DNA from: Alphaproteobacteria bacterium
GTDB taxonomy: Bacteria; Pseudomonadota; Alphaproteobacteria; UBA9219
NCBI GenBank assembly: GCA_031291395.1
Contig: JARLJD010000195.1
Coordinates: 1-35,896, forward strand
DNA length: 35,896 nt
Direction: 5' to 3'
A program made the translations under genes and the position numbers. Below, piece by piece: positions 7,626-26,655 of this stretch (positions are counted from its first letter, which is position 1; each line of letters begins with the position of its first letter). The notes beneath the pieces are model-generated. The model searched no databases, was not told the DNA's origin, and worked only from the letters and a program-made list of their open reading frames with translations.

Positions 7626-7671
7626 AATGTTGCAACCTTTCCCCTCACGCAGAGCCGCCAAGGAGACAAAA

Positions 7672-7932: not shown

Positions 7933-7943
7933 GGAGAACTGTC

Positions 7944-8258: not shown

Positions 8259-8267
8259 GGAAACGCA

Positions 8268-11685: not shown

Positions 11686-11695
11686 AGAATTTTCC

Positions 11696-13201
11696 ATGAC
11701 GCAGCTTAAAGAATTGGATTTGGGCCAGATCGAGTCTGAGCGATGCGCGGGTAAACGCATCGTCTTTATATGTGGATTTTTCGACATCCTGCATCCGGGT
11801 CATATTCGTTTCATCCGCTATGCCGCCGAACAAGGCGATATTCTCGTGGTCGGGCTGATCGATGCCAAACACGGAAGCAAGGAGATTAACAGCAACGAAG
11901 ACCGTTGGAACGCGCTCGCCTCCCTCAGCATGATCGATTACATCACGATCGCCGGTAAAAACCCCAATAAGACCATCCTTGCCCTGCAACCTCACGCTAT
12001 GGTTAAGGGCAAGGAGTGGGAAACGGCAGAGAATCCGGAAAAGAAAGCGCTCGACAAAATCGGCGCACAATTGATTTTCAGTTCTGGCGAGCGTTTTTAT
12101 TCGGCTCATTCCTATTTCAGGGATTCGGACAGCAAGAAGCTATGGCTTAAGCCCGAGATGGTCGCGCCCTATTTGGCGCGCCATAAAATCACCGAACGCA
12201 GCCTTAAATCCGTTCTTCATAGATTTCCAAGAATAAAAGCCGCCGTGTGGGGCGATTTGATCGTCGATGAATATCAGGAATGCCAGCCCGTAGGCATGTC
12301 GCGCGAAGACCCGACTATCGTTCTGACGCCGCAAACGATCAAGCGCTTTTTGGGCGGCGCCGGTATCGTTGCAGCCCATGTCAAGGGCCTCAGCGCTAAA
12401 GTAGATTTTTATACCGTCATCGGCGAAGACGATAATGCGCGCTATGCCGTGTCGATGCTGAGAAAATACGGCATCAACACCTATGCGCTTAAGGACGGCA
12501 TGCGCCCGACCACGACCAAACGTCGCTACCGCAGCATGAACAAAAGTCTGCTGCGGATCCATGATTTCAGCGAACAGGCGTTATCGCTTGAATTTCAGGA
12601 GAAAATTTTCGCCGATTTCGCCGCGCAAATCGAAACTTATGACATCGTGATCTTCTCCGATTTCAATTATGGGTTTTTGTCCTCGCCCCTTGTTAAGAAA
12701 TTGACTTCCCTATGCAAGAAACGGGGCATCCCCATGGTCGCCGACAGTCAATCTTCTTCACACACCGGAGATCTGGGCAAATTTCATGATGTCCTTCTGA
12801 CCACGCCAACGGAATATGAAGCGCGGCTTACGACCAATAACACGCAAGACGGATTGACCGTCGTTTCAGAAAAGCTCGGCAAGCAGCTTAAAGCGCAGAA
12901 TGTGTTCGTCACTTTGGGGTCGGACGGCGTTTTGATCCGTTCGGACAACGGAACCCGTTGGGAAACCGATGAATTGCCTGCGCTTAATCTACAGCCGCTC
13001 GACGTTTCAGGCGCGGGCGATGCTATGCTGGCGGCATCAGCGTTGGTTCTGGCTGCGGAAGAAAACATCTGGCATTCGGCGCTGATCGGCTCGATCGCTT
13101 CGGCTCGTCAGGTCGAACGTGTCGGCAACAGCCCGCTGAAAAGTTCCGAATTATCCGATGCTCTTAAATATGTGTTCGGTTCCATGGAAAATTACCCCTG
13201 A
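11696..13201 (+). CDS. Bifunctional nucleotidyltransferase-PfkB kinase, HldE-like with reversed domain order
   Basis: The product has 501 residues. Residues about 18-150 form a cytidylyltransferase-fold domain with GFFDILHPGH (the HxGH nucleotide-binding motif) and the VKGKEWE segment, as in the RfaE2 half of HldE. Residues about 180-495 form a PfkB/ribokinase-type sugar kinase, with GGAGIVAAHVKGL and the C-terminal anion-hole motif DVSGAGDAMLA, as in the RfaE1 half. In classical HldE the kinase is N-terminal, so the order here is swapped. HldE phosphorylates heptose 7-phosphate at C1 and adenylylates heptose 1-phosphate. A GmhA-type isomerase in the same locus supports an activated-heptose role. 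It overlaps the next gene at one base (13201). Confidence 0.87.
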   Translation: MTQLKELDLGQIESERCAGKRIVFICGFFDILHPGHIRFIRYAAEQGDILVVGLIDAKHGSKEINSNEDRWNALASLSMIDYITIAGKNPNKTILALQPHAMVKGKEWETAENPEKKALDKIGAQLIFSSGERFYSAHSYFRDSDSKKLWLKPEMVAPYLARHKITERSLKSVLHRFPRIKAAVWGDLIVDEYQECQPVGMSREDPTIVLTPQTIKRFLGGAGIVAAHVKGLSAKVDFYTVIGEDDNARYAVSMLRKYGINTYALKDGMRPTTTKRRYRSMNKSLLRIHDFSEQALSLEFQEKIFADFAAQIETYDIVIFSDFNYGFLSSPLVKKLTSLCKKRGIPMVADSQSSSHTGDLGKFHDVLLTTPTEYEARLTTNNTQDGLTVVSEKLGKQLKAQNVFVTLGSDGVLIRSDNGTRWETDELPALNLQPLDVSGAGDAMLAASALVLAAEENIWHSALIGSIASARQVERVGNSPLKSSELSDALKYVFGSMENYP

Positions 13202-13923
13202 TGAAAGCGATCCTTTTATCTGCGGGGCTTGGAACGCGCTTGCGCCCTTTAACCTTGTCGACGCCCAAATGCCTTGTGCCGATTTTGGGTCGGCCGCTGA
13301 TGGCCTATTGGTTGGAACAGCTTGACGCGGCGGGCGTAGAGGAATTCATCGTCAATACCCATTATTTACCACAGGCGGTTGCGGATTTTATCGTTGCCTC
13401 CCCGTGGCGAGACCGCGTGCGGCTTGTTCACGAAGAACGGCTTCTTGGCACCGGAGGCACACTTTTGGCCAATAAGGCTTTCTTGGAAAACGACGATATT
13501 TTTGTCGCCCATGCCGATAATCTTTGTTTGTGCGATTTCTCTGATTTTTTTGCCGCGCACGCTAAGCATCCAAAGGAATGTTTGATGACCATGATGCTGT
13601 TTAATACGGAAACGCCGCAATCCTGTGGCATCGTCGAACTGGATAAGCAAGAAAGGGTTATCGCCTTTCACGAGAAAACGCCCAATCCCTCATCCCGTCT
13701 GGCGAATGCGGCCGTGTATATAATGAGTGCCGACTTTATCCGATGGCTGACCGAAGCCTTTCCGTATGCCGACACGCTGGATATCAGCACGCAAGTTATT
13801 CCTCGGTTGATGAAGCGCATCTATACATGGCCAACGAACGGTTATTTGCGTGACATCGGAACGCCTGAAAGCCTTGCGGCTGCCGAAGCAGATATGCGGC
13901 GCGCGCCAAAAGGTCATCCATAA
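13201..13923 (+). CDS. Sugar-1-phosphate nucleotidyltransferase (HddC/GlmU-N-like)
   Basis: This 240-residue protein has the NTP-transferase signature LSAGLGTRLRPLTLSTPKCL at the N-terminus (nucleotide binding). It also has LGTGGTLL, a metal-binding HADN motif (AHADNLCL), and YLRDIGTPESL near the C-terminus. These place it among single-domain guanylyl/uridylyltransferases such as HddC (D-glycero-alpha-D-manno-heptose 1-phosphate guanylyltransferase), mannose-1-phosphate guanylyltransferases and MurNAc-1-phosphate uridylyltransferases. With a GmhA-type isomerase nearby, HddC is the favoured reading, but substrate and nucleotide cannot be fixed from sequence. Its stop and that of the convergent aldo/keto reductase overlap by ten bases. 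Confidence 0.85.
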   Translation: MKAILLSAGLGTRLRPLTLSTPKCLVPILGRPLMAYWLEQLDAAGVEEFIVNTHYLPQAVADFIVASPWRDRVRLVHEERLLGTGGTLLANKAFLENDDIFVAHADNLCLCDFSDFFAAHAKHPKECLMTMMLFNTETPQSCGIVELDKQERVIAFHEKTPNPSSRLANAAVYIMSADFIRWLTEAFPYADTLDISTQVIPRLMKRIYTWPTNGYLRDIGTPESLAAAEADMRRAPKGHP

Positions 13924-14891
13924 AGCGGGGCAACGCCAAATCCGTTGGCATGGGCAGCTTCAATTTGTCGCGCCAACGTCTCCAGCTCGGAAATGAAAGG
14001 TGAGGGGAGGGTAAGATCGGCGGCGTGGGCGATAGACCTCACCTGTTCCGGTGAGCGCATGCCGATGATAGCCGCCCCAACTTCCTGCGACCGCAGGCTC
14101 CATGCGACAGCAGCTTGGGAAAGTGAAGCGCCGTTATTTTCGGCGCATTGCGCCATCTGATGCACTGTTTCGATAACATCCCCGGTCAGATCCTGCCGCA
14201 GGCTTGGGCTACGCAAGGCGCGCGATTGCTTCGGAAGGGGATCGCCTGTTTTGTACTTGGCTGACAAAATGCCGCGCGCGAGCACGCCGTAAACCAACAG
14301 AGGCGCGCCGTAACGAGCCGCTACGGGAAAGGCATCTTGTTCAGCGGCGCGGGCAATGAGATTGTAGTGTCGCTGGTTGCCGGTCGGCATGGGCATGGCG
14401 TAACAACCGGCAAAATCACAAGCTGCTTTAAGCGCCGCGCCGGAAAAATTAGACAGGCCGTAGGCGCGAATTTTGCCTTCACGCCGTAGTGCTTCCAGAC
14501 AGCGCAAGCTTTCTTCAAGCGGCGTCGCAGGATCGAAATGGTGCATCTGATAAAGGTCGATATAGTCGGTCTGAAGACGACGCAAAGAGGCTTCGATTTT
14601 GAGGCGTATATTTTCAGGACGTCCGCAATGACGAGGATCGCCGCCGCTTTCGAGGCCGATTTTTGAGGCGACAATCCATCGATCACGGCGAGTCTTGAGC
14701 GCGTTACCGATAAATGTTTCTGAAAGACCGGCGGAATAAACGTCAGCAGTATCAACGAAATTGATGCCGCATTCTTCAGCGGCATCGAAAAGCGCGGCGG
14801 TTTCTTTTTCGTCGCAAAAATAGCCAAAGATATTGCCGCCCAAAGCTATTTGGGATGCTTGCAGCGCATTTGTGAGGGGGAAAAAACGCAT
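13914..14891 (-). CDS. Aldo/keto reductase
   Basis: The product has 325 residues and a complete AKR catalytic tetrad: D47 and Y52 in NFVDTADVYSAG, K77 in VASKIG and H117 in YQMHH. The later GLSNFSG and AIIGMRSPEQV segments fit the NADPH-binding half of the (beta/alpha)8 barrel. It resembles the oxidoreductases found in sugar-modification loci. It is the last gene of the long minus-strand run and lies three bases after an SDR gene. Likely reaction: NADPH-dependent reduction of a keto or aldehyde sugar intermediate (inferred from context). Confidence 0.9.
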   Translation of the reverse strand: MRFFPLTNALQASQIALGGNIFGYFCDEKETAALFDAAEECGINFVDTADVYSAGLSETFIGNALKTRRDRWIVASKIGLESGGDPRHCGRPENIRLKIEASLRRLQTDYIDLYQMHHFDPATPLEESLRCLEALRREGKIRAYGLSNFSGAALKAACDFAGCYAMPMPTGNQRHYNLIARAAEQDAFPVAARYGAPLLVYGVLARGILSAKYKTGDPLPKQSRALRSPSLRQDLTGDVIETVHQMAQCAENNGASLSQAAVAWSLRSQEVGAAIIGMRSPEQVRSIAHAADLTLPSPFISELETLARQIEAAHANGFGVAPLYG

Positions 14892-14894
14892 GCG

Positions 14895-15692
14895 TTATGA
14901 CTTTGTCGGATCCACCAAAGACCATTGCTCCCACAGCGTTGAACCGCCATCGATAACCAGCCCTTGGCCCGTGATAAAAGATGATTCCGAGGAACATAAA
15001 AAAGATACGGCATTAGCGACGTCATCGGACGTGCCGACACGACGCAGAGGAATATGATCGACGGCTTTTTGCCGGTAAAGTTCATTGTCGTCCGCCTCAA
15101 AACGGTCGCGATGTTCGTCTTTGACAATGAACCCGGGTATGATGGCGTTCACGCGGATGCCGTGCGCGCCAGCAAGAGCGGCCAGATAGCGCGTCATGTG
15201 GCGAAGCCCCGCTTTCGCGATGTGATAACTTGGCGAAAGATCCCCCGTTATAAAATCACCGGCTATCGAGCCGATGTTGATAACGACGCCGCCGATTTTT
15301 TGCGCGATCATATGATGAATGGCGCGCTGGCTCAAGAAGTAGGGCGCTTTCAGGACGGTGGTAAAAGTCAGATCCCAATTGCTTTCGTCCTCATCCAGCA
15401 TATCGCGGCGCGAGCCTGCGCGCGCGTTGTTCACGACGACATCAAGACGCTTGGCCACGGCAAGAACTTCATCGACCATAGCCGCGCCGCCCATGGGGGC
15501 GGCAAGATCGCCGATGACGGGATGGGCGATGTATCCTTGCTTGGTCAGGGTATCGACGGCGCGCGTTAAAGCATCTTTATCTTTATCGCCGCAATAAACG
15601 TGCATGCCGTCGCGCGCCAAACGCTGCGCAATATTGAAACCTATGCCGCGTGCGGCGCCGGAAACGAAAGCGATCTTAGCGGACATGGGCAT
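14895..15692 (-). CDS. Short-chain dehydrogenase/reductase
   Basis: This 265-residue classical SDR has the cofactor motif SGAARGIG (about residues 10-17), NNARAG in place of the usual NNAG, and catalytic Ser in NIGSIAG. The catalytic pair is Y-x-x-x-K in YHIAK. The family-typical PGFI turn and the C-terminal ITGQGLVIDGG are present. Two in-frame ATGs are close together (15692 and 15686). The start overlaps the end of the upstream gene by 17 bases, which indicates coupling. The substrate is unknown; context suggests a sugar or sugar-derived polyol. Confidence 0.88.
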   Translation of the reverse strand: MPMSAKIAFVSGAARGIGFNIAQRLARDGMHVYCGDKDKDALTRAVDTLTKQGYIAHPVIGDLAAPMGGAAMVDEVLAVAKRLDVVVNNARAGSRRDMLDEDESNWDLTFTTVLKAPYFLSQRAIHHMIAQKIGGVVINIGSIAGDFITGDLSPSYHIAKAGLRHMTRYLAALAGAHGIRVNAIIPGFIVKDEHRDRFEADDNELYRQKAVDHIPLRRVGTSDDVANAVSFLCSSESSFITGQGLVIDGGSTLWEQWSLVDPTKS

Positions 15693-16560
15693 GCCGTAAC
15701 GGTGCGTGAGTTGAGAGGATTATGTCTATGGCTGATTCAAGAAGCGCCAGAGTTTCATGCTCCCGCCATATCTGTTGCCATGGATAGGAAAAATTATAAT
15801 TATTTCGATCCCCCAGTTCCCGATTCATTTCCGTTTTATGATGGGCGGGATTTTTAAAAAGGACATAGGGCGTATTGGAAAAAATCGCAAAATTGGCTGG
15901 CCCGCTTTGCATGCCTAGAAATCCCCGCGCTGCGCTAATCAGCGCGAGATGTACCGCGAGTTCTGGCGCGTGTTGACTCACGATAATAACGTTCTCCATT
16001 TTCTTCAGAATGTCCGGCACATCGTCATGCCCGATCAGAAAAAAAGCCGCATCGCGCCTGTTTTTTATAAAATCGGCCCAAACCCCCATTGCTGCGTTGC
16101 TTTCGCCGCCCATCTGGTTTTTAAGATGAACAGTGATCGGCGCGCGATCCGCCGCGTAACGACTTATGATGTTCTGGGCGAGAGCTTTGGCGGTTTGGCT
16201 CATCTGCAGATAAGGCCGCGCGCCGGTGAGTAAAAACCTTTCCTGCAAACGCAAGGTCGTATCGATATTATGGCATGCGATGACAGACTCATCGGACGAC
16301 GGCCAAACCTGTTTTTGCAGGCGCGCCTGCCGGAATTGGGCGTATTTATGTATCGAAGCCACGCCCCGGACCTCCTGCAGGGTTTTTTCCAAAACAAGGG
16401 GAAAAGCCCGGCCTTCCTCAATGACGATAAGATCGATGAAAGATTCAGCGCCGCCCTGCATTTTGGCTTCCGCCAGCAACATAGCGCCATTGCCGAGCGA
16501 CGGCGCATCATGCCCAAGATGCCAAACAGCGCTGATCGTACTGGAAGGTTCAGCGGCCAT
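15676..16560 (-). CDS. Putative glycosyltransferase-like protein (GT-B / GT9-like C-terminus)
   Basis: This 294-residue protein has no signal peptide. Its C-terminal half shows a Rossmann-like pattern: ITVHLKN, then a helix, AAFFLIGHDD and NVIIVSQHAPELAVHL. The segment GFLGMQSGPANFAIFSNTPY follows. It resembles the nucleotide-sugar-binding SGPxHxA loop and small-residue pattern of ADP-heptose-type (GT9) glycosyltransferases. The match is partial and the N-terminal half is not recognised. A Tyr/Phe-rich segment follows. Its place between transketolase and SDR genes supports a role in assembling the same glycan. It could instead be a non-catalytic or different GT-B enzyme. Confidence 0.6.
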   Translation of the reverse strand: MAAEPSSTISAVWHLGHDAPSLGNGAMLLAEAKMQGGAESFIDLIVIEEGRAFPLVLEKTLQEVRGVASIHKYAQFRQARLQKQVWPSSDESVIACHNIDTTLRLQERFLLTGARPYLQMSQTAKALAQNIISRYAADRAPITVHLKNQMGGESNAAMGVWADFIKNRRDAAFFLIGHDDVPDILKKMENVIIVSQHAPELAVHLALISAARGFLGMQSGPANFAIFSNTPYVLFKNPAHHKTEMNRELGDRNNYNFSYPWQQIWREHETLALLESAIDIILSTHAPLRHAHVR

Positions 16561-16575
16561 GATTATCCTTAATCC

Positions 16576-17493
16576 CTATTTGGTCAAGACAGCGGTCACC
16601 ACGGCCTCGGGCGTGAGCCCAACAGATTCGCACAGATCGTCATAACTGCCATAATTCCTGACAAAGACATCCGGAATGGCCAAGGAATGAAAACGCAAAT
16701 CCGGAATTTCGTATATATGGCGCAGCACATCATCGCCAAATCCGCCGGACCGCATATGTTCTTCCAGAACAACGACCTTGCGTGTTTTGAGGGCGCTGGC
16801 GCGAATGGGTTCAATGTCGATGGGACGCACGGTATGAATATACAAAATATCCGCCGTAAGATTTTTATCGGCCAGCAATTCTTGCGCCCGCATAGCCGTG
16901 CGCAACTGCGACCCAACGGCCACCAACGTTACGTCCGATCCATCGGCAATCTTGGCCGCCTTGCCGAATATGATATCGCTGGCGCGAAATTCTACGCCAT
17001 GATTCTGGCCGCACAGCCTTGAAACGGTCAGATGGCTGTTGCGATAGGTTTGTAGAAATAGCGCATCAAATTCGGCAGCGCTGGCCGGCGTGCAAATCTC
17101 GCTTCCCTGCAATGTTTTCAGCAGGGCAAAGTCGTCATAGCAATGATGCGTGCAGCCAAGATACGAATAATCGAAAGCCGCGCCAACCGAGACGACATTG
17201 CCATGCAGCTGATGATAACAAAAATCAAGCTTCAGCTGCTCGAATGAGCGCTCGATAAGAAAAGGAGCGATGGTGTGAAGAACAGGGTACAGGCCGACAG
17301 ACGACATGCCAGCGCCCAGACTCATCATCGTCGGCTCAAGAATGCCGATATTGTAATAGCGATCCGGAAAAGCGGCGGCGAATGGCTGTAAAATCCCATG
17401 ACTGATATCGCCGACGATAACGACCAAGTCCGTGTCTCTCTGGCCAACGGCCAACATCGTATCTGCAAATTGCTGGCGAATGGATTTGCTCAT
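16576..17493 (-). CDS. Split transketolase, C-terminal (pyrimidine-binding) subunit
   Basis: The product has 305 residues and covers the second and third domains of transketolase. The N-terminal part binds the thiamine aminopyrimidine, and its activating glutamate is probably the Glu in NIGILEPTMM. The C-terminal domain begins near DVTLVAVGSQL and includes VRPIDIEPI. Together with the adjacent N-terminal subunit (overlap of four bases) it would make a complete enzyme of about 570 residues. Split transketolases commonly occur in secondary and surface-sugar loci, where they transfer two-carbon ketol units to sugars other than those of the pentose phosphate pathway. Confidence 0.9.
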   Translation of the reverse strand: MSKSIRQQFADTMLAVGQRDTDLVVIVGDISHGILQPFAAAFPDRYYNIGILEPTMMSLGAGMSSVGLYPVLHTIAPFLIERSFEQLKLDFCYHQLHGNVVSVGAAFDYSYLGCTHHCYDDFALLKTLQGSEICTPASAAEFDALFLQTYRNSHLTVSRLCGQNHGVEFRASDIIFGKAAKIADGSDVTLVAVGSQLRTAMRAQELLADKNLTADILYIHTVRPIDIEPIRASALKTRKVVVLEEHMRSGGFGDDVLRHIYEIPDLRFHSLAIPDVFVRNYGSYDDLCESVGLTPEAVVTAVLTK

Positions 17494-18290
17494 GCCAAGG
17501 CCTCCATAAGCTGCTTATGCTCATTCGCATCCGGGATGCGGTGATGCCATTTGCCATGGCCTTCGATCATCGGGATGCCAAAACCTTTGATGGTTTTGGC
17601 AACAATGACATGCGGGATGCCGTCATTGACAAAGGCAACGTTGGCGATCGCCGCCTGAATTTCTTTTTCATTGTGGCCGTCAACGACCTGAACATTCCAT
17701 CCGAACGCCGCCCATTTAGCTGGCATATCGTCAAAAGGCATTAGCTGCATGGCCGATTGGTTCCAATCGACGATGACGCAAAGATTACCCAGCTTGCGGT
17801 TGCGGGCGATATTGGCTGCTTCCCATACAGTGCCTTCATGGCATTCACCGTCGCCGACCAGAACGAAAATCCGGTTTCTCTTGTTCTGGATGCGAAGACC
17901 AAGATGAATGCCCAAAGCAAAACTCAAACCGTGTCCAAGCGAACCCGTCGATGCCTCCACGCCCGGGACTTTCGTCCGGTCGGGATGCTCGCCGAGAATG
18001 CCGCCTTTTTTGCAAAACAGACGGACATCATTATCGGTAATAAAATGATGACGATGCAAATTAACATAAAGGGCGAGACAGCCATGGCCTTTGGAAAGAA
18101 TAAAATAATCCCGCTCGTCCCATAACGGATCCTTGGCGTCAAACTTTAAAACATCACGATACAAAACAATAATGATGTCGAGGATTGAAAAAGCGCTAGG
18201 GATATGCCCGTTTTGTCCGGACACGCACATATCGACGATCTGCCGGCGAAGGTCTTTATTAGGAACATGGTCGCGCTGTAGCATTGTCAT
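17490..18290 (-). CDS. Split transketolase, N-terminal (thiamine-diphosphate-binding) subunit
   Basis: This 266-residue protein carries the thiamine diphosphate motif beginning GDGECHEGTVWEAANIA and ending in DWNQ, with the usual GDG-x(~25)-N spacing. SKGHGCLALY and TGSLGHGLSFALG are typical transketolase N-domain segments. It lacks the other domains, which are supplied by the following gene. Four-base overlaps link it to the SDR upstream and the partner subunit downstream, so the three genes are translationally coupled. The cofactor is Mg2+/ThDP and the site is cytoplasmic. The substrate is not predicted. Confidence 0.92.
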   Translation of the reverse strand: MTMLQRDHVPNKDLRRQIVDMCVSGQNGHIPSAFSILDIIIVLYRDVLKFDAKDPLWDERDYFILSKGHGCLALYVNLHRHHFITDNDVRLFCKKGGILGEHPDRTKVPGVEASTGSLGHGLSFALGIHLGLRIQNKRNRIFVLVGDGECHEGTVWEAANIARNRKLGNLCVIVDWNQSAMQLMPFDDMPAKWAAFGWNVQVVDGHNEKEIQAAIANVAFVNDGIPHVIVAKTIKGFGIPMIEGHGKWHHRIPDANEHKQLMEALA

Positions 18291-19060
18291 TGTCCGAAAT
18301 ACCCTCTGCCTTGCCCGCCATCAATGGGCACGATGCTGCCTGTATTAAAGGATGCGAGATCCGAACACAAATAGGCAACGCAGTTGCCGATTTCTTCCGG
18401 CCTGCCAAAGCGGCCAATGCGCTGGCGTTCCGTCAGATATTTTTTTACATGTTCCGGCCGTTCGTGTGATGCGATATCCCAATAGCCTTTTTCGGTAAAC
18501 ACAGCGCCCGGCAAAACCGCCGTTAAAACGACACCGTCGGGCGCGACAACGCCGCCCATGCTGCGTGTATAGGCTGTCAAAGCGGCTTTCATCGCGCAAT
18601 AAGGAACGGGGCCGTGATTTTCCATCGCCGATATGGATGACACATGGCACACACGGCCCCATTTGCGCTGGCGCATGCCGGGCAGGAAGTAGCCGTTCAA
18701 TTCAACCGCGATTTCAAAATTAAAGCGATAGACAGCGCGCCACTGGTCGGTGGAGCAAAAGGGATCGCTTATATCCAGCGTGCCGCCGACGTTATGAACA
18801 ACAATGTCCAGATCACCAAAATCCTGAAGTCTGTCCATCAACTGCGCTGGTGCGCCTTCCGGCATCAGATCCAAAGCCAGAGCGCGATGCCCTGCCTTGG
18901 TTCCGCCGATAGATTCCACCAGATTCTCAACATCGGCCTGCGTACGCGCGACGGCGGCAATGATCGCCCCTTCCCGTGCGAGAGATGTCGCGATCGCTCG
19001 CCCGAGTCCGCGTCCGGCGCCGGTCACAAGCGCTTTTCTGCCTTTTATATTCAAATCCAT
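18287..19060 (-). CDS. Short-chain dehydrogenase/reductase
   Basis: This 257-residue classical SDR has TGAGRGLG at the cofactor site (about 14-21), HNVGG in place of NNAG, catalytic Ser in HVSSISA, and YCAMK (Tyr-x-x-x-Lys). The C-terminal end contains FNTGSIVPIDGG. It is fused into the run by a four-base overlap with the split transketolase, so it probably reduces or oxidises the transketolase product or substrate. The upstream gap to the FkbM gene is 49 bases. Confidence 0.88.
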   Translation of the reverse strand: MDLNIKGRKALVTGAGRGLGRAIATSLAREGAIIAAVARTQADVENLVESIGGTKAGHRALALDLMPEGAPAQLMDRLQDFGDLDIVVHNVGGTLDISDPFCSTDQWRAVYRFNFEIAVELNGYFLPGMRQRKWGRVCHVSSISAMENHGPVPYCAMKAALTAYTRSMGGVVAPDGVVLTAVLPGAVFTEKGYWDIASHERPEHVKKYLTERQRIGRFGRPEEIGNCVAYLCSDLASFNTGSIVPIDGGQGRGYFGQ

Positions 19061-19109
19061 GCAGTGTCCGTGGGGATTAGGTTTTACAGAGTTTCAACGA
19101 TTGCTGGAT

Positions 19110-19976
19110 TCATCGCGACCACGGCATTGTATCTTTACAAGTTAAAAACGCACTTCCTTCGCGATAGCTTGTGGGCAGATCGTCCAGCTTGTGCGCCCGC
19201 GCCCAGCCCTTTTTTTGAGAAAAGATATGCACGGGCCCTTCCTGAAAATTTTCAAACAGGGCTTTAGCGTTTTCCGGTGTGCCAATCTCGACCATAACGT
19301 CTAAATGCGCCCATCGTTCCATAGGAATTCCGTTCAAAATAACCACCTCATGGCCTTCGGCGTCAATTTTGGCCAATGTTACGTCATCAAGGACATTTTT
19401 AATATCAAACACGTCGACGTCGAAACGCTCCAAGTCGCCATAGGGGTTAGCCTTGGCTCCGCTTAAATGGCTGCCTGTTGTATTGCCCAGAACACGCGTG
19501 AATTCCATGCGGCCTGCGCTGGCGGATATGGCCGCTTGGTGCGCAATGCAAGATTTTTCTGCGCCGTTGAGTTTAAGGTTGTCCTGCAATTTTTGATAAT
19601 GAATAGGGTCGGGTTCATAAGACACGACAGAATAACCGCACTGCGCCAGAACAAGGCTATGCAGCCCTAGGTTGGCGCCAATATCGATCGCTTTTTTGTA
19701 ACGATTGCGATTGCGCATATAAAAAGAAAAAATAATTAACTCGTCCAGCCCAAACATATCGAGCGTATCTATAGAACCAAGTTTTTGATAGGGAAAAGTG
19801 ATCTCGCCAATGCCATCAAGCACAACTGGTCTTTGCCCAATAAAAGCATCCTTAAGATTTGAAAAATGATCTTTGGTTATGGGATCCAGAAATTTATAAA
19901 AAACCGACGAACGAGCATGCTCGGCATGATGATCGGCCAAGAAGTCGAAAAGATGATGAAGGGTTACTAAGGACAT
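19110..19976 (-). CDS. FkbM-family methyltransferase
   Basis: This 288-residue protein has a SAM-binding motif (KAIDIGANLGLHSLVLAQ, about 95-112) followed by SYEPDPIHYQKLQDNLKLNG. It also has the family-typical LAKIDAEGHEVVILNGI segment. FkbM proteins O-methylate sugars or polyketides and are frequent in lipopolysaccharide and capsule loci. The N-terminal 80 residues are not recognised. It is followed after 49 bases by an SDR. Expected role: methyl-capping of a surface glycan residue (inferred). Confidence 0.88.
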   Translation of the reverse strand: MSLVTLHHLFDFLADHHAEHARSSVFYKFLDPITKDHFSNLKDAFIGQRPVVLDGIGEITFPYQKLGSIDTLDMFGLDELIIFSFYMRNRNRYKKAIDIGANLGLHSLVLAQCGYSVVSYEPDPIHYQKLQDNLKLNGAEKSCIAHQAAISASAGRMEFTRVLGNTTGSHLSGAKANPYGDLERFDVDVFDIKNVLDDVTLAKIDAEGHEVVILNGIPMERWAHLDVMVEIGTPENAKALFENFQEGPVHIFSQKKGWARAHKLDDLPTSYREGSAFLTCKDTMPWSR

Positions 19977-20053
19977 AGCCGCGTCATTTGCTAGAGGAAG
20001 GAGGATAAGACGAACATAAAATCATTCTTTAGTAAACTTCTCAATAGAATCAA

Positions 20054-21700
20054 TCATCCAGACATCGCCGCCGGAACAGCCGCGCCGATCCTTTCATAAA
20101 ACCGAATGAGGCGATGAATGTGATGATCGATGAAAAAGGAAGGGGGTATGGAGGAAACGGTTTTCGATCGGCGTACAACCTCTTTTAACCGCTCAATGCC
20201 GCCGGGCGCAAGAACATCCTGTGTGTCGAGCCAATAGCCGTAACGGCGCGCAATAAAACGGCTCATTTTCAGTTCCGGCGTGCCCAGCACGACAAGGCCG
20301 GATGTCAGAAAATCGGCTACGCGACCAGATAATCCCGCGCTAAAATAATGTTGGGTATAATAGGGCGGCGCACCTTTTATTTCGGGATCAACGTTTAAAA
20401 TGAGGCCGCAGTCATAATCGCGTTGCCGTTCCTGCAAAATATCAGGTGGTACGCATGTGTGGACTTTGACTTGTGTCCGCGTGTTGCTCAAGTCCAACAG
20501 ATTGCGATGCGCATCTTCCACCTGCGTCTGAGTTAAATGCCGTTTGTCGGGCGTAACGAAAATATCGATGTTAATGCCAGCTTCGACCAGAGGACGGAAT
20601 ATACCCTCGACTTTTTTTAAGGTTCCCTCAGGATCCTGGATATAGCCGGTGGAAATAAGGCGAAGCGCGTCATCTTGCGGGCGCGGATGCGGCCGCAGCG
20701 ATTCCTCGACATAGTGAGGAAACCAGATCATATTTTTGTTTGGCTCCCACTTGTTGATGCGGGCGGCAGCTCGATATTGAAGATCCTGACAACATACGCC
20801 GTCGGATTCATTTAGGGCTTGCGTTTGCCAATCGCCTATATAGCCGCGCGAATTCCACGCGTTGCCAGGGACAAGGCCGGGAAATATATCCTGATAATCA
20901 AAAATGACCGGCCCCGGCTTGCCACGAACAAATACAATAGCGGTCAAGTCAATGGCCGAAGAAAAAACATGAAAGGCCGCTGGTCTGAAAGTCGTTGCCA
21001 GACGCAACGCGTCCCATGCGTCCTTGTAGGGCACGGCATGAAAGCCGATATCGGTTATTAAAAAATTAGGCTCGTTCTGATACAGAAAGATGACGTCTTT
21101 CCCCGCTTTTTTCAACGCGCGCGCTATTTTAAGCGCGCGCGCACGAAACGTCTCGCATACCATGATAATTTGCTTCGTATCGCGGTTGCGATCCATGCGC
21201 GCTCTTTGGGCAAGAACCATAATCTCCCGCTCCTCCGGATTTTGAGGTTCTGCGCGGCGTATATGCCGACTGTGCGCGGCGATGTGCTGGCGCAGTTGGG
21301 TCGCCGCAGGAAAGTCCGGCTGTAAAGACAAGGCTTCTTCATTCAACAATTCGGCCTTAAGCATCTGGCCTTCATTAGAAAAAAGGAGGCTGTGTTGATA
21401 CAAAACCAGCGCCAGTGATTTGTTCAGCTCTGGGAAAGCGGGGCGCAGCGTTTGAATGTCGCGCAAGGCCGACAACGCCTCCGCGTAACGCGCCGTCTGA
21501 AACAGCGCTACGGCTTGCTGATACAGACAGTTTGTCAGGGCGTCGATGACGTCAGGAAAGTCCGGACATGATTCCACAATCTGGCGCAAGAAAAGCTCGG
21601 CCGTATCAACGTGGCCCTGCTGCTGCATACGGATTTTTTCCAGCAGCGCCAAAGCCAGCGCCCGCTCCATCACAGGAGGATTGTCTTCAGCAAGGGACAT
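20054..21700 (-). CDS. TPR-glycosyltransferase fusion
   Basis: The product has 548 residues. Residues about 10-155 contain tetratricopeptide-like repeats: VDTAELFLRQIVESCPDFPD, ARYAEALSALRDIQTLRPAF and LKAELLNEEALSLQPDFPAA. Residues about 170-540 look like a GT-B glycosyltransferase, with a Rossmann-like start (QIIMVCETFRARALKIARAL), an inter-domain region, and LRLISTGYIQDPEGTLKKVE. A GRVADFLTSGLVVLGTPEL segment resembles the donor-binding helix of GT4-type enzymes. TPRs could bind a partner protein or count repeat units. It is cytoplasmic with no signal peptide. Exact GT family is uncertain. Confidence 0.7.
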   Translation of the reverse strand: MSLAEDNPPVMERALALALLEKIRMQQQGHVDTAELFLRQIVESCPDFPDVIDALTNCLYQQAVALFQTARYAEALSALRDIQTLRPAFPELNKSLALVLYQHSLLFSNEGQMLKAELLNEEALSLQPDFPAATQLRQHIAAHSRHIRRAEPQNPEEREIMVLAQRARMDRNRDTKQIIMVCETFRARALKIARALKKAGKDVIFLYQNEPNFLITDIGFHAVPYKDAWDALRLATTFRPAAFHVFSSAIDLTAIVFVRGKPGPVIFDYQDIFPGLVPGNAWNSRGYIGDWQTQALNESDGVCCQDLQYRAAARINKWEPNKNMIWFPHYVEESLRPHPRPQDDALRLISTGYIQDPEGTLKKVEGIFRPLVEAGINIDIFVTPDKRHLTQTQVEDAHRNLLDLSNTRTQVKVHTCVPPDILQERQRDYDCGLILNVDPEIKGAPPYYTQHYFSAGLSGRVADFLTSGLVVLGTPELKMSRFIARRYGYWLDTQDVLAPGGIERLKEVVRRSKTVSSIPPSFFIDHHIHRLIRFYERIGAAVPAAMSG

Positions 21701-21730
21701 GGCAACAACAGCGAATAGTTATGAAGTGGA

Positions 21731-22690
21731 TTAACACGCGCGTCCGGCGTTAGCCACGGCTAACGTTTTGCGCATCCATGCAAGGTTGTTATGGCGTTCC
21801 TCGTTTTTTAATTCTCCCGTGCGGAATTTCTGGATCAATTCCTGCACGGCATCATCCACGGTTTTTTTCGGCCTAAATCCGGTTGCCAGCAACCGATCGG
21901 AATTAACGCGATAGGAACGGGGGTCGTTGGAAGGCTTGGTGACAATGGTCGCCGGAACGTGCTTGGTGATGAGCCGTGCGATTTCCAGAATCGAGAGATT
22001 TTCAAAGCCAGCATTGAAGATGCCCGTATGTTGCGGATGATCAAGAAAGAACAGATAAAGATCCGTAATATCGTCGATATGAATATTGGGACGCGTCTGA
22101 CTGCCGCCCAGCACTGTGATCTCGCCTTTGGTGAGAGCCTGCATCGTCAGCATATTGACGGCGACATCCAGCCGCATGCGTGGCGAATAACCGCAAACGG
22201 TGGCTGGCCGGATGATCTGTACCGCCATACGATCGGCATAACTCAGCAACACGCGTTCAGCGACCATTTTGGTTTTGTTATATTCAGAAATCGGTTTAAG
22301 CTCGAGATCTTCGGTGACTTTATCTTCGTCTTTAACCCCATAAACGCTCCCCGAGGAGGCATAGATAAAACGCGTGATTCCCTTGCGCGCCGCGCGGTCG
22401 GCAAGCTGCATCGTCGCAAGGCAACTGATTTCCCATGTTAATTGCGGATCGAGATCGCCGCAGGGATCGTTAGCTACGGAAGAGAGGTGAATAATCACAT
22501 CCAGAGCATCAAGGTTTATTTTCTCGATCTCTCGGACATCGCCTTCGATAATTGTCAGGTTGGAATGTGGTGTAAGGAAATTGCCAAACCACATAATGTC
22601 GAGAACGACAACTTCGTGCCCCGCTTGCAAAAGCTTCGGCACCAGAACCGAGCCTTTATAGCCGCATCCGCCCGTCACCAATATCCGCAT
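21731..22690 (-). CDS. NAD-dependent epimerase/dehydratase (extended SDR)
   Basis: This 319-residue protein has the extended-SDR cofactor motif TGGCGYKG at the N-terminus, VLDIMWFGN after beta-2, and HLSSVAND. The catalytic Ser is in YASSGSVYGVKD and the Tyr-x-x-x-Lys pair reads Y-N-K-T-K. RPNIHIDDITDLYL matches the sugar-nucleotide epimerase segment. Members convert NDP-sugars by 4-epimerisation or 4,6-dehydration. The N-terminal TGGCGYKGS variant is close to uncharacterised epimerases from LPS loci. GGGAGG precedes the ATG. It follows the E1 beta gene after 26 bases. Confidence 0.87.
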   Translation of the reverse strand: MRILVTGGCGYKGSVLVPKLLQAGHEVVVLDIMWFGNFLTPHSNLTIIEGDVREIEKINLDALDVIIHLSSVANDPCGDLDPQLTWEISCLATMQLADRAARKGITRFIYASSGSVYGVKDEDKVTEDLELKPISEYNKTKMVAERVLLSYADRMAVQIIRPATVCGYSPRMRLDVAVNMLTMQALTKGEITVLGGSQTRPNIHIDDITDLYLFFLDHPQHTGIFNAGFENLSILEIARLITKHVPATIVTKPSNDPRSYRVNSDRLLATGFRPKKTVDDAVQELIQKFRTGELKNEERHNNLAWMRKTLAVANAGRAC

Positions 22691-22716
22691 CTCAAACCTC
22701 CCTTTTCAAATCGGGC

Positions 22717-23778
22717 TTAAAAAGGCCCTGCAAACCATTGACCCGGCACATCATGATGCCCTTCTCTTTCCAATTCCGGGAAAGACCGTTCTTCTCCCTT
22801 GACCATTTTCCATGCCGCCGCAGCGATTTCGGGCGCGCCAAAATAAAATTCACGCGTCAACTCATAGGCGGTGGGTTCCGGCACATCGGGCATCGTCAGA
22901 TAAAGCGGCGCAGCTCTTAAATGCGAGAACAGATCAGAAGCCACGCGCGCCACAATCGTACCCGCAACCGAACCAAAAGCCGCCCCGGAATCGAGCGCAA
23001 GCAGTCTCCCCGTTTTTTTGACCGAGGTCAAAAGGGTCGGCCAATCGAGCGGTTTAATCGTGCGCAAATCGATCAATTCCGCCTGCACGCCTTCTTCCCT
23101 AAGCCTGCGTACGGCATGCAGCGCCTCGATCGTCAGATAGGAGGAGGCGACGATCGTGACATCGACGCCTTTCTCCATCACGCGGCATTCGGACAAAGGC
23201 ACGCGGAAATCAGGCGATTCCGGAACTTCGCCCATTTGCTGATGCAACCAGCGATGTTCAAGAAAGACGACAGGATTATTGTCATCGATGCTCGCGCGCA
23301 AAAGCCCTTTGGCATCCGCGGGCGAAGACGGCATCACGACTTTCAAGCCGGGAATATGCGCGAACCATGCTTGCAGATTTTGCGAATGCGTCGGCCCTTG
23401 GCCCCAACCGCGTCCGATGATCAAACGAATAGTCAGAGGAACAGAACGCTTGCCCCCAAACATATAGTGCCATTTAGCCGCGCTGTTAACGAGTTGATCC
23501 ATCGCCAGCAAAAAGAAATCGAGTCGCTGATGCACCATCACCGGACGCAATCCCCCTATGGCGGCGCCCACCCCAATGCCGGTCATAGCGTTTTCCGATA
23601 AGGGCATGTCGAACACGCGTTTGCCAAAACGTTCCTTCAAATCAACCGTCGTGCCGAAAATGCGTTTGGGATCATCGATGCCGAGTCCATAGCAAATAAC
23701 CTCGTCCGATGCCGCCATCGCTTGATGCAGACCTTCATTGATCGCTTGGGCGAAAGTTATTTCGACGGGACGCTTCAT
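22717..23778 (-). CDS. Thiamine-diphosphate dehydrogenase E1 component, beta subunit
   Basis: The predicted product has 353 residues. It resembles the beta subunit of pyruvate, acetoin or branched-chain 2-oxoacid dehydrogenase E1. Family segments are EITFAQAINEGLHQAMAASD near the start, FDMPLSENAMTGIGVGAAIG, and RGWGQGPTHSQNLQAWFAHI with the conserved His-Ser-Gln. VVMPSSPADAKGLL and LIDLRTIKPLDW follow. The longer frame that starts at 23949 overlaps the alpha gene. ATG 23778 gives a four-base ATGA overlap with the alpha subunit and is preferred. No E2 or E3 gene is present in the window. An acyl transfer or ligase use with a sugar acceptor is therefore possible (inference). Confidence 0.9.
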   Translation of the reverse strand: MKRPVEITFAQAINEGLHQAMAASDEVICYGLGIDDPKRIFGTTVDLKERFGKRVFDMPLSENAMTGIGVGAAIGGLRPVMVHQRLDFFLLAMDQLVNSAAKWHYMFGGKRSVPLTIRLIIGRGWGQGPTHSQNLQAWFAHIPGLKVVMPSSPADAKGLLRASIDDNNPVVFLEHRWLHQQMGEVPESPDFRVPLSECRVMEKGVDVTIVASSYLTIEALHAVRRLREEGVQAELIDLRTIKPLDWPTLLTSVKKTGRLLALDSGAAFGSVAGTIVARVASDLFSHLRAAPLYLTMPDVPEPTAYELTREFYFGAPEIAAAAWKMVKGEERSFPELEREGHHDVPGQWFAGPF

Positions 23779-24791
23779 GCCGCGCTCTCCATCGTATTTT
23801 GTCCCACGCTTTTTCCGGCATCTTCTGCATAGACTTCGCGATAGGCGTCTGGTCTCGGCGGCAGCGGTTGCGCTTCGACCCATGCAAAATCGCGCGCAAT
23901 GTCCGCCAGCACTTCGTTCCGTAAAGCTTCGAGTCGCGCGGCGGACCACCCTTCGTTTTCACGCAAATATTTTTCATAACGCGCAACGGGGGCGCGTTTT
24001 TTCCATTCGGCGCATTCGCCTTGCGCGCGATAGCCAAGATGATCGTCGTCGGCAGGGCCGCAATGTTCAAGCCATCTGTATGTCGAAAATTCTGCAAAAA
24101 CGGGCCCTTGCCCTGAACGCATTTCGGCTATGACGGCGTGCATAAGCTTATATGTCGCAGCGACATCGTTGCCGTCGCCCGCGACGCTTTTTATCCCCAT
24201 CGCTTCGACCATCTTGTAAATTGACCTTCCCGCAGGCTGACGCGGGCCGAGCGGCGAATAAACCGAATAAAGATTATTCTCGCATATGAACAAAACCGGA
24301 AGGCGCTGCACCGCTGCAAAATTAACGGATTCGTAAAAAACGCCTTCTTCGATCGCGCCATCGCCAAGAAAAACGATCGCGAGAGAATCCGACCCCTTTT
24401 GCTGCAGGGCAAGGCCAAGCCCAACGCCTATGGGAATCGTATTGCCAACAATGGCCGTGCTGCCTTTGAATCCGACGCTTTCATCTATCAGATGCATCGA
24501 ACCGCCGCGCGCGCCGCTGCATCCGCCTGCACGTCCGTATATTTCGGCAAGCATCGCGCGCACGGAACCGCCTTTGCCCATATAATGGGCGTGCGCGCGA
24601 TGCGAACTGACCGCCAAATCGTCGCGCCGCATCAAGGGCGCGAGTGCCGCAGACACGCCTTCCTGCCCGATCGAAAAATGTACAGGACAGCGCATTTTGC
24701 CAGCGGGATAACGTTGGGCGATACCCTCCTCGACGCCCCGGATAAGATAGAGCGCGCGCATGATTTTTTCTGTGTCGGAACCTTCTGCCAT
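23775..24791 (-). CDS. Thiamine-diphosphate dehydrogenase E1 component, alpha subunit
   Basis: The predicted product has 338 residues. The ThDP motif begins GDGAIEEGVFYESVNFAAVQ and ends in ENN. SIGQEGVSAALAPLMRRDD, SSHRAHAHYMGKGG and GGSMHLIDES are characteristic of PDH/acetoin-dehydrogenase E1 alpha chains. ATG 24791 overlaps the methyltransferase stop by one base (TGATG) and is preferred. An upstream TTG at 24806 has a GGGGA sequence and would add five residues. It is coupled to the beta subunit by ATGA. The enzyme would decarboxylate a 2-oxoacid to a ThDP-bound acyl or enamine unit. Confidence 0.9.
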   Translation of the reverse strand: MAEGSDTEKIMRALYLIRGVEEGIAQRYPAGKMRCPVHFSIGQEGVSAALAPLMRRDDLAVSSHRAHAHYMGKGGSVRAMLAEIYGRAGGCSGARGGSMHLIDESVGFKGSTAIVGNTIPIGVGLGLALQQKGSDSLAIVFLGDGAIEEGVFYESVNFAAVQRLPVLFICENNLYSVYSPLGPRQPAGRSIYKMVEAMGIKSVAGDGNDVAATYKLMHAVIAEMRSGQGPVFAEFSTYRWLEHCGPADDDHLGYRAQGECAEWKKRAPVARYEKYLRENEGWSAARLEALRNEVLADIARDFAWVEAQPLPPRPDAYREVYAEDAGKSVGQNTMESAA

Positions 24792-25447
24792 CAGGGAATG
24801 AACCAATAAAAATCCCCGGTATAACCGGCTTTATCGAAAAAGATTTTCCATTCCTCGACCGCCATCATCGTTTTTGCGGTCAGATTCCACGCTTCCATAC
24901 GGCGTTTTTCTTCATCGTTGCGATAGGCGTCAACGGTGATAAAGCTACCGCGCTTTTTGACGCGCTCGATTTCTTTCAACGCCCCGACAATTTCATCCTT
25001 CTCCAGATTATGCAGGGTATTTATTGAAATAACGACATCAAAGCTTTTGTCTTCATAAGGCAACTGCCGCGCATCGCCGACGCGCAACAACGGGCGCACT
25101 TCTTCCTTGGCGTTGGCAATTGCGTATTCGGAAACGTCAAGCCCCGCAAGCTTAATGCCGGGAATCAAGCGCATCATATCGTAAAGCATGAAGCCCTTGG
25201 CGCAGCCGATGTCGAGCAGCGAGGATTGCGCCGTGAGCCCGAAATGTTTTTGGAAGGTCGGGATAACAGGCTCCCAAAAACGCGCGTTGTAGGAAAAGCC
25301 GCCATAGCCGTGACGGCGATCGCCATCGAAAAAATCCTTGCCGAATTGCCGCGCGAGCGCTCGGTCTGCGGGAGATTTTTCCTCGCCGCGCGCCTCGACA
25401 TTGCGCTTGGTGCGCGGATATTTTTCCATCAAATCGATTTCAGCCAT
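24791..25447 (-). CDS. Class I SAM-dependent methyltransferase
   Basis: The product has 218 residues. Motif I is LLDIGCAKGFMLYDM (about 78-92), followed by LAGLDVSEYAIANAKEE and a GDARQLPYEDKSFDVVISIN segment (motifs II and IV). These are standard for methyltransferase-11-type enzymes. A Gly/Tyr/Phe-rich N-terminal region (RRHGYGGFSYNARFW) may bind the acceptor. CGGAGC precedes the ATG. It abuts the E1 alpha gene. The acceptor is unknown; a sugar C- or O-methylation is plausible in this locus. Confidence 0.88.
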   Translation of the reverse strand: MAEIDLMEKYPRTKRNVEARGEEKSPADRALARQFGKDFFDGDRRHGYGGFSYNARFWEPVIPTFQKHFGLTAQSSLLDIGCAKGFMLYDMMRLIPGIKLAGLDVSEYAIANAKEEVRPLLRVGDARQLPYEDKSFDVVISINTLHNLEKDEIVGALKEIERVKKRGSFITVDAYRNDEEKRRMEAWNLTAKTMMAVEEWKIFFDKAGYTGDFYWFIP

Positions 25448-25495
25448 TTTTTGCTCCGTTGATCTAAGCGGTTAGAACCCCGCTTATGCTTTGGT

Positions 25496-26488
25496 TTACT
25501 TCTTATGGATATAATCCAGCGGTTCTTTGGAAATCGCCTGCCAGTTATCTTCCACCCATTGAATCGTCTTGCCCACGCCTTCCTCAAGGGAAACCGTGTC
25601 TCGCCAGCCCAATGTAGTCCGCGCCTTAGCGTCACTCATTAAGTAATGCGCATCCTTGCCGGGCCTGTCTTCGCTTTCTTCGACCAACGACGCGAAATCC
25701 GTGCCAAGCAAAGCGTGAATTTTGCGCACAAGATCGCGAATGGTGGTAAAATCATTAGTGGAAAAATGATAAACTTCGCCGACATTGCCGCGCGCTAAAG
25801 CCGCCATAGCCGCGCTGCCGATATCGTCGCGATAAATGAAGGCTCGAGTCGAAGTTCCCCCGCCATGCAGCGGCAACTTGCGCCCCATGCGCGCATAGAT
25901 GATCGTGCGAGGGATAATGCGGTAAAGCTGTTGTCCGGGTCCATAAAAATTGGAAAAACGCGTCAGAACCGCAGGAAACCCGTACTGGTTGACGCTCGTC
26001 ATCACATGCATGTCGATAGCGGCGTGGCTGACGGCGTAGGGCGTGCTCGGCCTATAGACGAAGCTCTCGCTGATCAAACTCTCTGTGTTGCCATAAAGTT
26101 CAGGCGTCGATACGCGGACATATTTTTGCAGACGCGGCAGCTTGCGTAGGGCCTCAAGCAATTTGACCTTGGATACAATATTGGTCTGATACCATTGTTC
26201 AGGCGCCAGCCAACTTTCCGCCACCATGCTCTGCCCTGCCAAATCAACGACATAGTCGGGATTGAAAGCGAGAATGTCAGCCGCGGCCGCGGCGTTATCA
26301 TCATTTATGTCGCGCTGTAGGAACGTGTATGAACCGCTTTCCGGCATGTCCGGAAAATAAAGCTTCGATCTCAGCGGCGAACGGCTCAATCCAAGTACCG
26401 TCATATTTTCTTTAAGCGCCGCCCGCAAAACGGCAATGCCCGCGAACGAGTTCGCGCCCAAAATGACGAGTTTGCGATCAGCTGACAT
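25496..26488 (-). CDS. GDP-mannose 4,6-dehydratase-like extended SDR with an altered active site
   Basis: The product has 330 residues. Cofactor motif GANSFAG is at 11-17. STPELYG at 127-133 matches the STSELYG active-site loop of GDP-mannose/GDP-heptose 4,6-dehydratases, with Glu130 kept. The catalytic Tyr-x-x-x-Lys reads Y151-A-V-S-H155, so the usual lysine is a histidine (codon CAC at 26024-26026). RFSNFYGPGQ and RAFIYRDDI follow the family. It may have altered or reduced activity, or be specific for a different step. As first gene of the minus-strand run and divergent from the GmhA-type gene, it is a candidate for acting on a GDP-heptose. Confidence 0.82.
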   Translation of the reverse strand: MSADRKLVILGANSFAGIAVLRAALKENMTVLGLSRSPLRSKLYFPDMPESGSYTFLQRDINDDNAAAAADILAFNPDYVVDLAGQSMVAESWLAPEQWYQTNIVSKVKLLEALRKLPRLQKYVRVSTPELYGNTESLISESFVYRPSTPYAVSHAAIDMHVMTSVNQYGFPAVLTRFSNFYGPGQQLYRIIPRTIIYARMGRKLPLHGGGTSTRAFIYRDDIGSAAMAALARGNVGEVYHFSTNDFTTIRDLVRKIHALLGTDFASLVEESEDRPGKDAHYLMSDAKARTTLGWRDTVSLEEGVGKTIQWVEDNWQAISKEPLDYIHKK

Positions 26489-26545
26489 ACTTGATGGATG
26501 AAAGGAGGGGAGGGAAAGACATCTTCCTTTTCACATAAATGGCAA

Positions 26546-26558
26546 CGCTTGACAAGCG
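26546..26558. promoter_or_regulatory. 13-base perfect palindrome in the divergent intergenic region
   Basis: CGCTTG-A-CAAGCG lies between the divergent starts at 26488 (minus) and 26656 (plus). It overlaps a TTGACA at 26549-26554 that has no convincing -10 partner. It could be an operator controlling both halves of the locus. It is not followed by a T-run on either strand, so it is not a terminator. Confidence 0.35.
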
Positions 26559-26655
26559 CCGCAAAAAAAATGCGCGCCGTAATCAAGAAGAGCGGTTGCT
26601 GTTTGGCATGTTTATTGCTCGTTTATATTGCTTGCTAATTTATAGGAAAATAACG

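Follow-up and report, generated by a model that had tools for sequence, protein, structure and literature searches.

Candidate sugar-branching E1 enzymes in a glycan locus of an alphaproteobacterium and in a conserved clade of glycan-associated relatives

Introduction

Three classes of thiamine diphosphate (ThDP) enzymes have been described for the branching of keto sugars: YerE-like enzymes, two-chain E1 enzymes of the alphaKADH2 type and split transketolases (PMC12247030). YerE-like enzymes act in lipopolysaccharide (LPS), and alphaKADH2 enzymes in the formation of C2-branched actinobacterial products; evidence for the latter activity comes from feeding and knockout experiments for aldgamycin and from in vitro reactions of KbDH with pyruvate and ketones (PMC12247030). 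AviB1/B2 and Pau11/12 are proposed carboligases of the alphaKADH2 type (PMC12247030, PMC4425429). Sugar branching by split transketolases is a proposal only: the 13 listed candidates all come from Streptomycetes, and none has been assayed in vitro (PMC12247030). Branch ketones are subsequently reduced, methylated or transaminated (PMC12247030), and for paulomycin E, the reductase of the acetyl branch is the aldo-keto reductase (AKR) Pau7 (PMC4753412). Here, we analyzed a glycan locus of an alphaproteobacterium (GenBank assembly GCA_031291395.1, contig JARLJD010000195.1) that encodes both a two-chain E1 pair and a split transketolase. The window, that is, the whole stretch of 35,896 nucleotides, is one contig of a 222-contig, 2.41 Mb assembly that is 99% complete.

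E1-type branching has so far been associated with actinobacterial antibiotics, and branching in LPS with YerE-type enzymes. The E1 clade described here points to a third situation: it is linked with glycan loci across 11 or more phyla, and by sequence alone its members resemble pyruvate dehydrogenase (PDH). As far as the literature we found shows, E1-dependent sugar branching has not been reported in this setting. In our best reading, the product of the locus is an unusual nucleotide sugar, C-branched and of higher carbon number, that is destined for a surface glycan.

Results and discussion

Comparison of the locus with described systems

The E1 beta-like subunit (353 aa, 22717..23778, minus strand; PF02779 Transket_pyr 110 bits, PF02780 Transketolase_C 92 bits) and the E1 alpha-like subunit (338 aa, 23775..24791, minus strand; PF00676 E1_dh 186 bits) together have a two-chain ThDP E1 fold, with the catalytic Glu and His in beta and the His in alpha, according to Pfam and to alignments with PDB structures, including 1ni4_A for alpha. 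The pair resembles the alphaKADH2 systems (AviB1/AviB2 of avilamycin, Pau11/Pau12 of paulomycin, those of aldgamycin and kosinostatin, and KbDH-alpha/beta) in being a two-subunit E1 without E2/E3 and in clustering with nucleoside diphosphate (NDP)-sugar genes and with branch-tailoring reductases and methyltransferases or aminotransferases. It also shares the motifs MRxPxH and RGWGQ with Streptomyces E1s encoded near NDP-hexose 2,3-dehydratases. However, the known alphaKADH2 cases are actinobacterial secondary metabolite enzymes acting on deoxysugars, whereas the window pair is part of a glycan locus of Gram-negative type that includes a heptose-like activation module, and it belongs to a separate clade. 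Unlike the E1 of pyruvate or branched-chain 2-oxoacid dehydrogenase, it has no dedicated lipoyl E2/E3 partner and does not group with central E1s.

The other described systems match in part. The split transketolases of miharamycin and amipurimycin, for which branching is proposed, differ from that of the window, which is encoded alongside an E1 pair within a glycan locus. YerE, ErwE and JanthE carry out ThDP-dependent carboligation on keto sugars of LPS, and a relative fills the transketolase slot in five clade loci (L096, L140, L100, L101 and L112); the YerE type nonetheless belongs to a different ThDP superfamily (decarboxylase type), and no such chain (TPP_enzyme N/M/C) was found among the Pfam-scanned window genes. 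The SIS isomerase, the PfkB kinase with a nucleotidyltransferase and the sugar-1-phosphate nucleotidyltransferase recall the ADP/GDP-heptose pathway (GmhA, HldE, HddC), but the window fusion has the reversed domain order and scores under the HldE cut-offs. By analogy, the reductases and methyltransferases, and the DegT aminotransferases of some clade loci, would fit the branch-tailoring pattern. Two candidate matches were rejected: the literature on the Coxiella virenose/dihydrohydroxystreptose pathway gives no link to an E1 or a transketolase, and that on bradyrhizose is sparse, with none found on its biosynthesis enzymes.

A conserved E1 clade is dedicated to glycan loci

Relatives of the E1 pair (34-62% identity) were collected from phylum-wide and genome-collection searches, and the genes around them were compared by score with the proteins of the window. 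The window sequence fell within a 45-row clade (SH-aLRT 99) of a 127-sequence E1 alpha tree, apart from 24 central PDH E1s. A careful 59-row tree supported the clade at 100/98 and separated it from E2-linked E1s. Its named members come from at least 11 phyla: Pseudomonadota, Verrucomicrobiota, Acidobacteriota, Cyanobacteriota, Chloroflexota, Chlamydiota, Spirochaetota, Bacteroidota, Elusimicrobiota, Vulcanimicrobiota and Riflebacteria.

The same sugar-nucleotide genes surround these relatives. Because the score thresholds were chosen by us, some loci are incomplete and a few are near relatives, the p-values of the partner counts given here are indicative only. The commonest partner was the nucleotidyltransferase-PfkB fusion (28 of 42 clade loci versus 3 of 59 other E1 loci, p=1.8e-11), followed by the epimerase-type short-chain dehydrogenase/reductase (SDR) epi1 (19/42 versus 7/59, p=2e-4; orthologues up to 518 bits), the methyltransferase MT11 (18/42 versus 2/59, p=9.5e-7), the GMD-like SDR (16/42 versus 3/59, p=4.5e-5), the SIS isomerase (11/42 versus 4/59) and the Zn-dependent alcohol dehydrogenase (Zn-ADH; 7/42 versus 1/59). 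In contrast, a lipoyl E2 was found in none of the 42 clade loci and in 15 of the 59 others (p=1.4e-4). The closest full match is L097, a Verrucomicrobia contig, which carries the fusion, then epi1, the GMD-like SDR, E1 alpha, E1 beta, MT11, the classical SDR2, both transketolase chains and an FkbM methyltransferase, then the Zn-ADH. An annotated example is a plasmid of Azospirillum oryzae with the order epimerase, SDR, PfkB, SIS, SDR, E1 alpha, E1 beta, DegT, DegT. The E1 clade is thus real, conserved and dedicated to sugar or glycan loci, and the conserved clustering that the initial annotation had put forward as a check was borne out. The recurrence of the cluster core suggests a widespread, uncharacterised route to unusual branched surface sugars.

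Two variations were seen among the relatives. In L075, L076, L077, L078, L081, L087 and L071, a single fused chain of ~650-700 aa comprises both E1 alpha and E1 beta. Three loci from a viral contig collection (L234, L238 and L251) encode an MRCP-type E1 with epi1, DegT, SIS or PfkB-fusion genes; these viral-labelled contigs may be phage-borne or mis-binned glycan islands.

The E1 pair is distinct from the central complex

Searched by protein family, the whole assembly contains a single PF00198 (lipoyl E2) match, at C177:2419-3084. This E2 adjoins a second E1 beta (C177:4315), a second E1 alpha (C177:5654) and an E3-like reading frame, and this central E1 pair is ~35% identical to that of the window. 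The initial annotation had noted the absence of a lipoyl E2 from the locus and reasoned that an E2/E3 set beside the E1 would place it in central metabolism; the sole E2/E3 set of this genome goes with the other E1 pair, so this does not refute the proposal. Additionally, the window E1 alpha scores below the curated equivalog cut-off (TIGR03182, 251 versus 394 bits).

With a complete PDH complex in the genome, the window E1 pair could be a paralogue that relies on the E2/E3 of this housekeeping complex to make acyl-CoA for glycan acylation. We consider this very improbable: the E1 lineage is distinct, residues are altered at both catalytic histidines, none of the 42 clade loci has an E2, the conserved linkage is to sugar activation genes, and the central complex already supplies acetyl-CoA.

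Of 33 genomes sampled from the order, no other than that of the window has an E1 alpha of the window type; the others have either a central E1 (~32-38% identity) or no match. Therefore, the E1 is not ancestral there, and the island was probably acquired recently. This patchy occurrence could also be taken to mean a chance neighbourhood or decaying genes without a joint function. Such a reading is scarcely credible, since the frames are open at the coordinates of all named parts, translational overlaps are kept, catalytic residues are intact and the gene content recurs in distant phyla.

Signature residues link the clade to Streptomyces E1 pairs

The catalytic Glu and His of E1 beta are kept in 42 of 42 clade members. 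Directly before the catalytic His, E1 alpha has the signature MRCPVH in the window and an MR/KxPxH type in all clade members, where E2-linked E1s have GGFxH-like sequences; when aligned to 1ni4_A (human E1 alpha), the MRCPV stretch immediately precedes the His at chain index 67, which we take to be His63. The clade signature of E1 beta is RGWGQGPxHSQ, compared with a variable stretch ending in AQHSQ in E2-linked E1s.

Four Streptomyces E1 pairs have MRTPxH and RGWGQG in common, and these are absent from the E2-linked and the other Streptomyces E1s. For three of the four, an NDP-hexose 2,3-dehydratase lies on the same contig: adjacent in L122, at ~3 kb in L117 and at 34 kb in G581. The E1 pair of L122 is accompanied by RmlC, an EryCIII-like glycosyltransferase, elongation factor G (EF-G), a major facilitator superfamily (MFS) pump and an FBP_C protein, and its EF-G, MFS and FBP_C neighbours parallel the gene types and sizes of pau8-pau12 (PMC4425429). 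The remaining Streptomyces E1s resemble E2-linked E1s and group with them. The signatures are likewise present in the proxies L117, L122 and L280, which fall with the glycan clade on one side of the tree.

In L172 (Streptomyces griseofuscus pSGRIFU1), an E1 pair with the same signatures lies in a polyketide synthase/acyl carrier protein cluster where sugar genes are not seen; the acceptor of the carboligation may thus not be a sugar in every case. The window E1 might likewise act on a non-sugar, such as a lipid or amino-acid-like decoration that is later joined to the glycan. We regard this as quite unlikely, given that extended SDRs or the kinase-nucleotidyltransferase fusion occur in nearly all glycan-clade loci.

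The split transketolase and alternative second ThDP enzymes

The split transketolase consists of an N chain (TK_N, ThDP-binding, 266 aa, 17490..18290, minus strand; PF00456 139 bits) and a C chain (TK_C, 305 aa, 16576..17493, minus strand; PF02779/PF02780, Transketolase_C 90 bits). Their best PDB matches, 6yak (185 bits) for TK_N and 6yaj for TK_C, both come from the split transketolase of Carboxydothermus, one chain each. Two further full-length TK/DXS-type proteins (701 and 684 aa) are encoded in the genome; the window genes are therefore extra copies. The ThDP motif and the equivalents of catalytic Glu418 and of His30/69/103/263/481 are kept. In the yeast enzyme, Arg528 binds the sugar phosphate, and Glu418 and His481 are catalytic. 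At the sugar-phosphate positions of TK_C (yeast numbering), Arg528 is replaced by Gln, His469 by Gly and Asp477 by Tyr/Leu, and Ser386 is not kept. The Arg528 position is Glu in L097 and Arg in both 6yaj and the genome's own transketolase, and 6yaj also keeps the His/Asp region. The Gln, Gly and Tyr/Leu substitutions argue against a phosphosugar substrate of the window transketolase. This split transketolase from outside the streptomycetes makes keto-sugar branching by split transketolases testable in one small operon.

These residues bear on a further explanation, in which the split transketolase, possibly along with the E1, acts upstream and extends a sugar before activation: it would form a long-chain ketose phosphate, which the isomerase and the fusion convert to an activated octose or heptose. 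Canonical transketolase chemistry does yield long-chain ketose phosphates, the GmhA-like isomerase and kinase/nucleotidyltransferase would be their obvious consumers, and the fusion is the commonest partner of the E1. We nevertheless find this route unlikely. The window transketolase lacks the phosphate-binding Arg and the His469 and Asp477 equivalents, most loci with the isomerase/kinase set have no transketolase, and a 1-deoxyketose made from pyruvate would be no substrate for isomerisation by a GmhA-type enzyme.

Among the 42 clade loci, five (L082, L085, L087, L088 and L097) have a split transketolase and five (L096 at 16451-18277, L100, L101, L112 at 7397-9172 and L140) have a YerE/acetolactate-synthase-like ThDP enzyme with an SDR. 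The two were never found together, in numbers too few to call exclusion. MT11 was present in all 10 loci with a second ThDP enzyme, compared with 8 of the 32 others. Related split transketolases elsewhere in the phylum are also usually close to MT11 (13 of 15 split-transketolase loci), and in those inspected, a radical S-adenosylmethionine (SAM) gene lies between the two.

Some observations concern these enzymes outside the E1 question. TK_N, TK_C, the radical SAM gene and MT11 form a recurring cassette, often without the E1 pair (L082, L226, L219 and other split-transketolase loci). The best PDB match of the acetolactate-synthase-like enzyme of L096 is 8rph, presumably JanthE. The Rhodopseudomonas YerE-like enzyme may be RhopE, which has been linked in review to ropiose; ropiose of R. 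palustris was considered as the product of L096 and L140 and could not be tied to these loci.

Proposed pathway

From the observed gene identities, clustering, E2 absence and residue patterns, we infer the reaction, donor, acceptor, product and enzyme roles, and every chemical step given here is to be read accordingly. The SIS isomerase, the kinase-nucleotidyltransferase and the nucleotidyltransferase would activate a heptose-like sugar phosphate to an NDP-sugar, and the extended SDRs would introduce or move a keto group. The E1 pair, as a free-standing alphaKADH2-type ThDP carboligase without lipoyl E2/E3, would decarboxylate a 2-oxo acid, probably pyruvate, and transfer the acyl anion onto the keto sugar, giving an acetyl branch on a tertiary alcohol. 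The split transketolase would transfer a hydroxyacetyl (ketol) group onto a non-phosphorylated acceptor, on the same or another sugar. An AKR, SDR or ADH might then reduce the branch ketone or ketones, MT11 and FkbM might methylate, and a glycosyltransferase might transfer the finished sugar.

On the sequence evidence, the E1 pair is probably a sugar carboligase; for the split transketolase, the same role has somewhat less than an even chance. Carboligation by the E1 is favoured over oxidation because the 42 clade loci have no E2, residues at the catalytic His are altered and the signatures are common with the Streptomyces pairs. The initial annotation had proposed that the E1 or the transketolase produces a branched or extended sugar. 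A branched sugar formed by the E1 is the version we favour, given the Streptomyces deoxysugar links and the alphaKADH2 precedent (PMC12247030, PMC4425429), and the wording "or" understates the case because both enzymes look adapted to a non-standard substrate. We further speculate, as a rather doubtful extension, that one heptose-derived nucleotide sugar is the substrate of both carboligases, one after the other: the acetyl branch would come from the E1 reaction and a hydroxyacetyl unit from that of the transketolase, with hydroxypyruvate or another non-phosphorylated compound as donor, forming an undescribed doubly branched or extended C9-C11 sugar, with a modular second slot that is occupied by a YerE-like enzyme in other bacteria. 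If the proposal is true, the locus would contain new tertiary-alcohol-forming enzymes and direct the synthesis of unseen glycan sugars.

Several points weigh against the proposed pathway. To our knowledge, no biochemistry or glycan structure is available for any member of the E1 clade. The sister relation between the glycan clade and the Streptomyces group is weak (63/12 in the 59-row tree), and the lineage comparison used the three Streptomyces proxies in place of characterised alphaKADH2 sequences. No second ThDP enzyme is in view in 32 of the 42 clade loci, so the two carboligases are not a fixed pair. Related split transketolases elsewhere in the phylum mostly have Lys at the Arg528 position and often occur without an E1. 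Finally, the GMD-like SDR (25496-26488) keeps the Thr, Glu and Tyr, with the Lys of YxxxK replaced by His; a 4-keto-6-deoxy acceptor is therefore not assured.

Gene content of the locus and its flanks

The 13-gene run lies on the minus strand, from 26488 down to 13914, with intergenic gaps of -17 to 77 bp. The overlaps are 1 bp for MT11/E1 alpha and 4 bp each for E1 alpha/E1 beta, SDR2/TK_N and TK_N/TK_C, so the two ThDP pairs form two tightly coupled sub-blocks within one run. Pfam matches, the common strand and the gaps thus confirm the initial description of a split transketolase (16576-18290) and an E1 alpha/beta pair (22717-24791) in one coupled run, together with NDP-sugar SDRs, an AKR and methyltransferases. 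The limits first given, 13914-26488, were too narrow: sugar-activation, ADH and isomerase genes of the same theme, by Pfam, flank the run on the plus strand (10633-13923 and 26539-27297) and belong to the locus.

The run begins with the GMD/RmlB-like extended SDR (25496..26488; PF16363 143 bits, and motifs). Its subfamily has the glycine motif GxNSFxG, and its nearest relatives have His or Arg at the YxxxK lysine. MT11, a class I SAM methyltransferase (24791..25447; PF08241 68 bits), precedes the E1 genes, and epi1, an NAD-dependent epimerase/dehydratase-type SDR with canonical SS..YxxxK (21731..22690; PF01370 125 bits), follows them. The protein at 20054..21700 had been called a TPR-glycosyltransferase; TPR and GT4-like signals are indeed present, but both are weak and sub-threshold (20.6 and 15.3 bits, respectively), and it is a presumed glycosyltransferase. 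Next are an FkbM-family methyltransferase (19110..19976; PF05050 34 bits) and SDR2, a classical SDR (18287..19060; PF13561 130 bits) that is also beside the transketolase in L097, in the same position (308 bits). Beyond the transketolase genes lie a protein of 294 aa without an assigned family (15676..16560; no Pfam match at E<=1, predicted fold pLDDT 36), the classical SDR1 (14895..15692; PF13561 175 bits) and the AKR (13914..14891; PF00248 205 bits), which by analogy to Pau7 (PMC4753412) is a candidate ketoreductase for the branch ketone. All of these genes are on the minus strand.

On the plus strand are the Zn-ADH (10633..11685; PF08240/PF00107), the fusion of a cytidylyltransferase-like domain and a PfkB kinase in reversed HldE order (11696..13201; PF01467, PF00294), a sugar-1-phosphate nucleotidyltransferase resembling HddC, MurU and mannose-1-phosphate guanylyltransferase (13201..13923; PF00483 111 bits, under every NCBIfam cut-off) and, on the other side, the SIS-domain, GmhA-like phosphosugar isomerase (26539..27297; PF13580 60 bits; gmhA model 85 bits, cut-off 209). 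The fusion is far below the HldE cut-offs (TIGR02198, 192 versus 345 bits; TIGR02199, 76 versus 182 bits), and a canonical HldE is encoded elsewhere in the same genome (contig C55, 378 bits). Therefore, the window set is a second, divergent sugar-activation set.

Two other genes of the window were observed. Just upstream of the locus, 8268-9338 encodes an LpxR-family outer membrane protein (289 bits) of the lipid A 3'-O-deacylase family. The translation of 32909-33565 reads as a type IV pilin-like N-terminal sequence, GFTLVEFAIVLGVIGAI.

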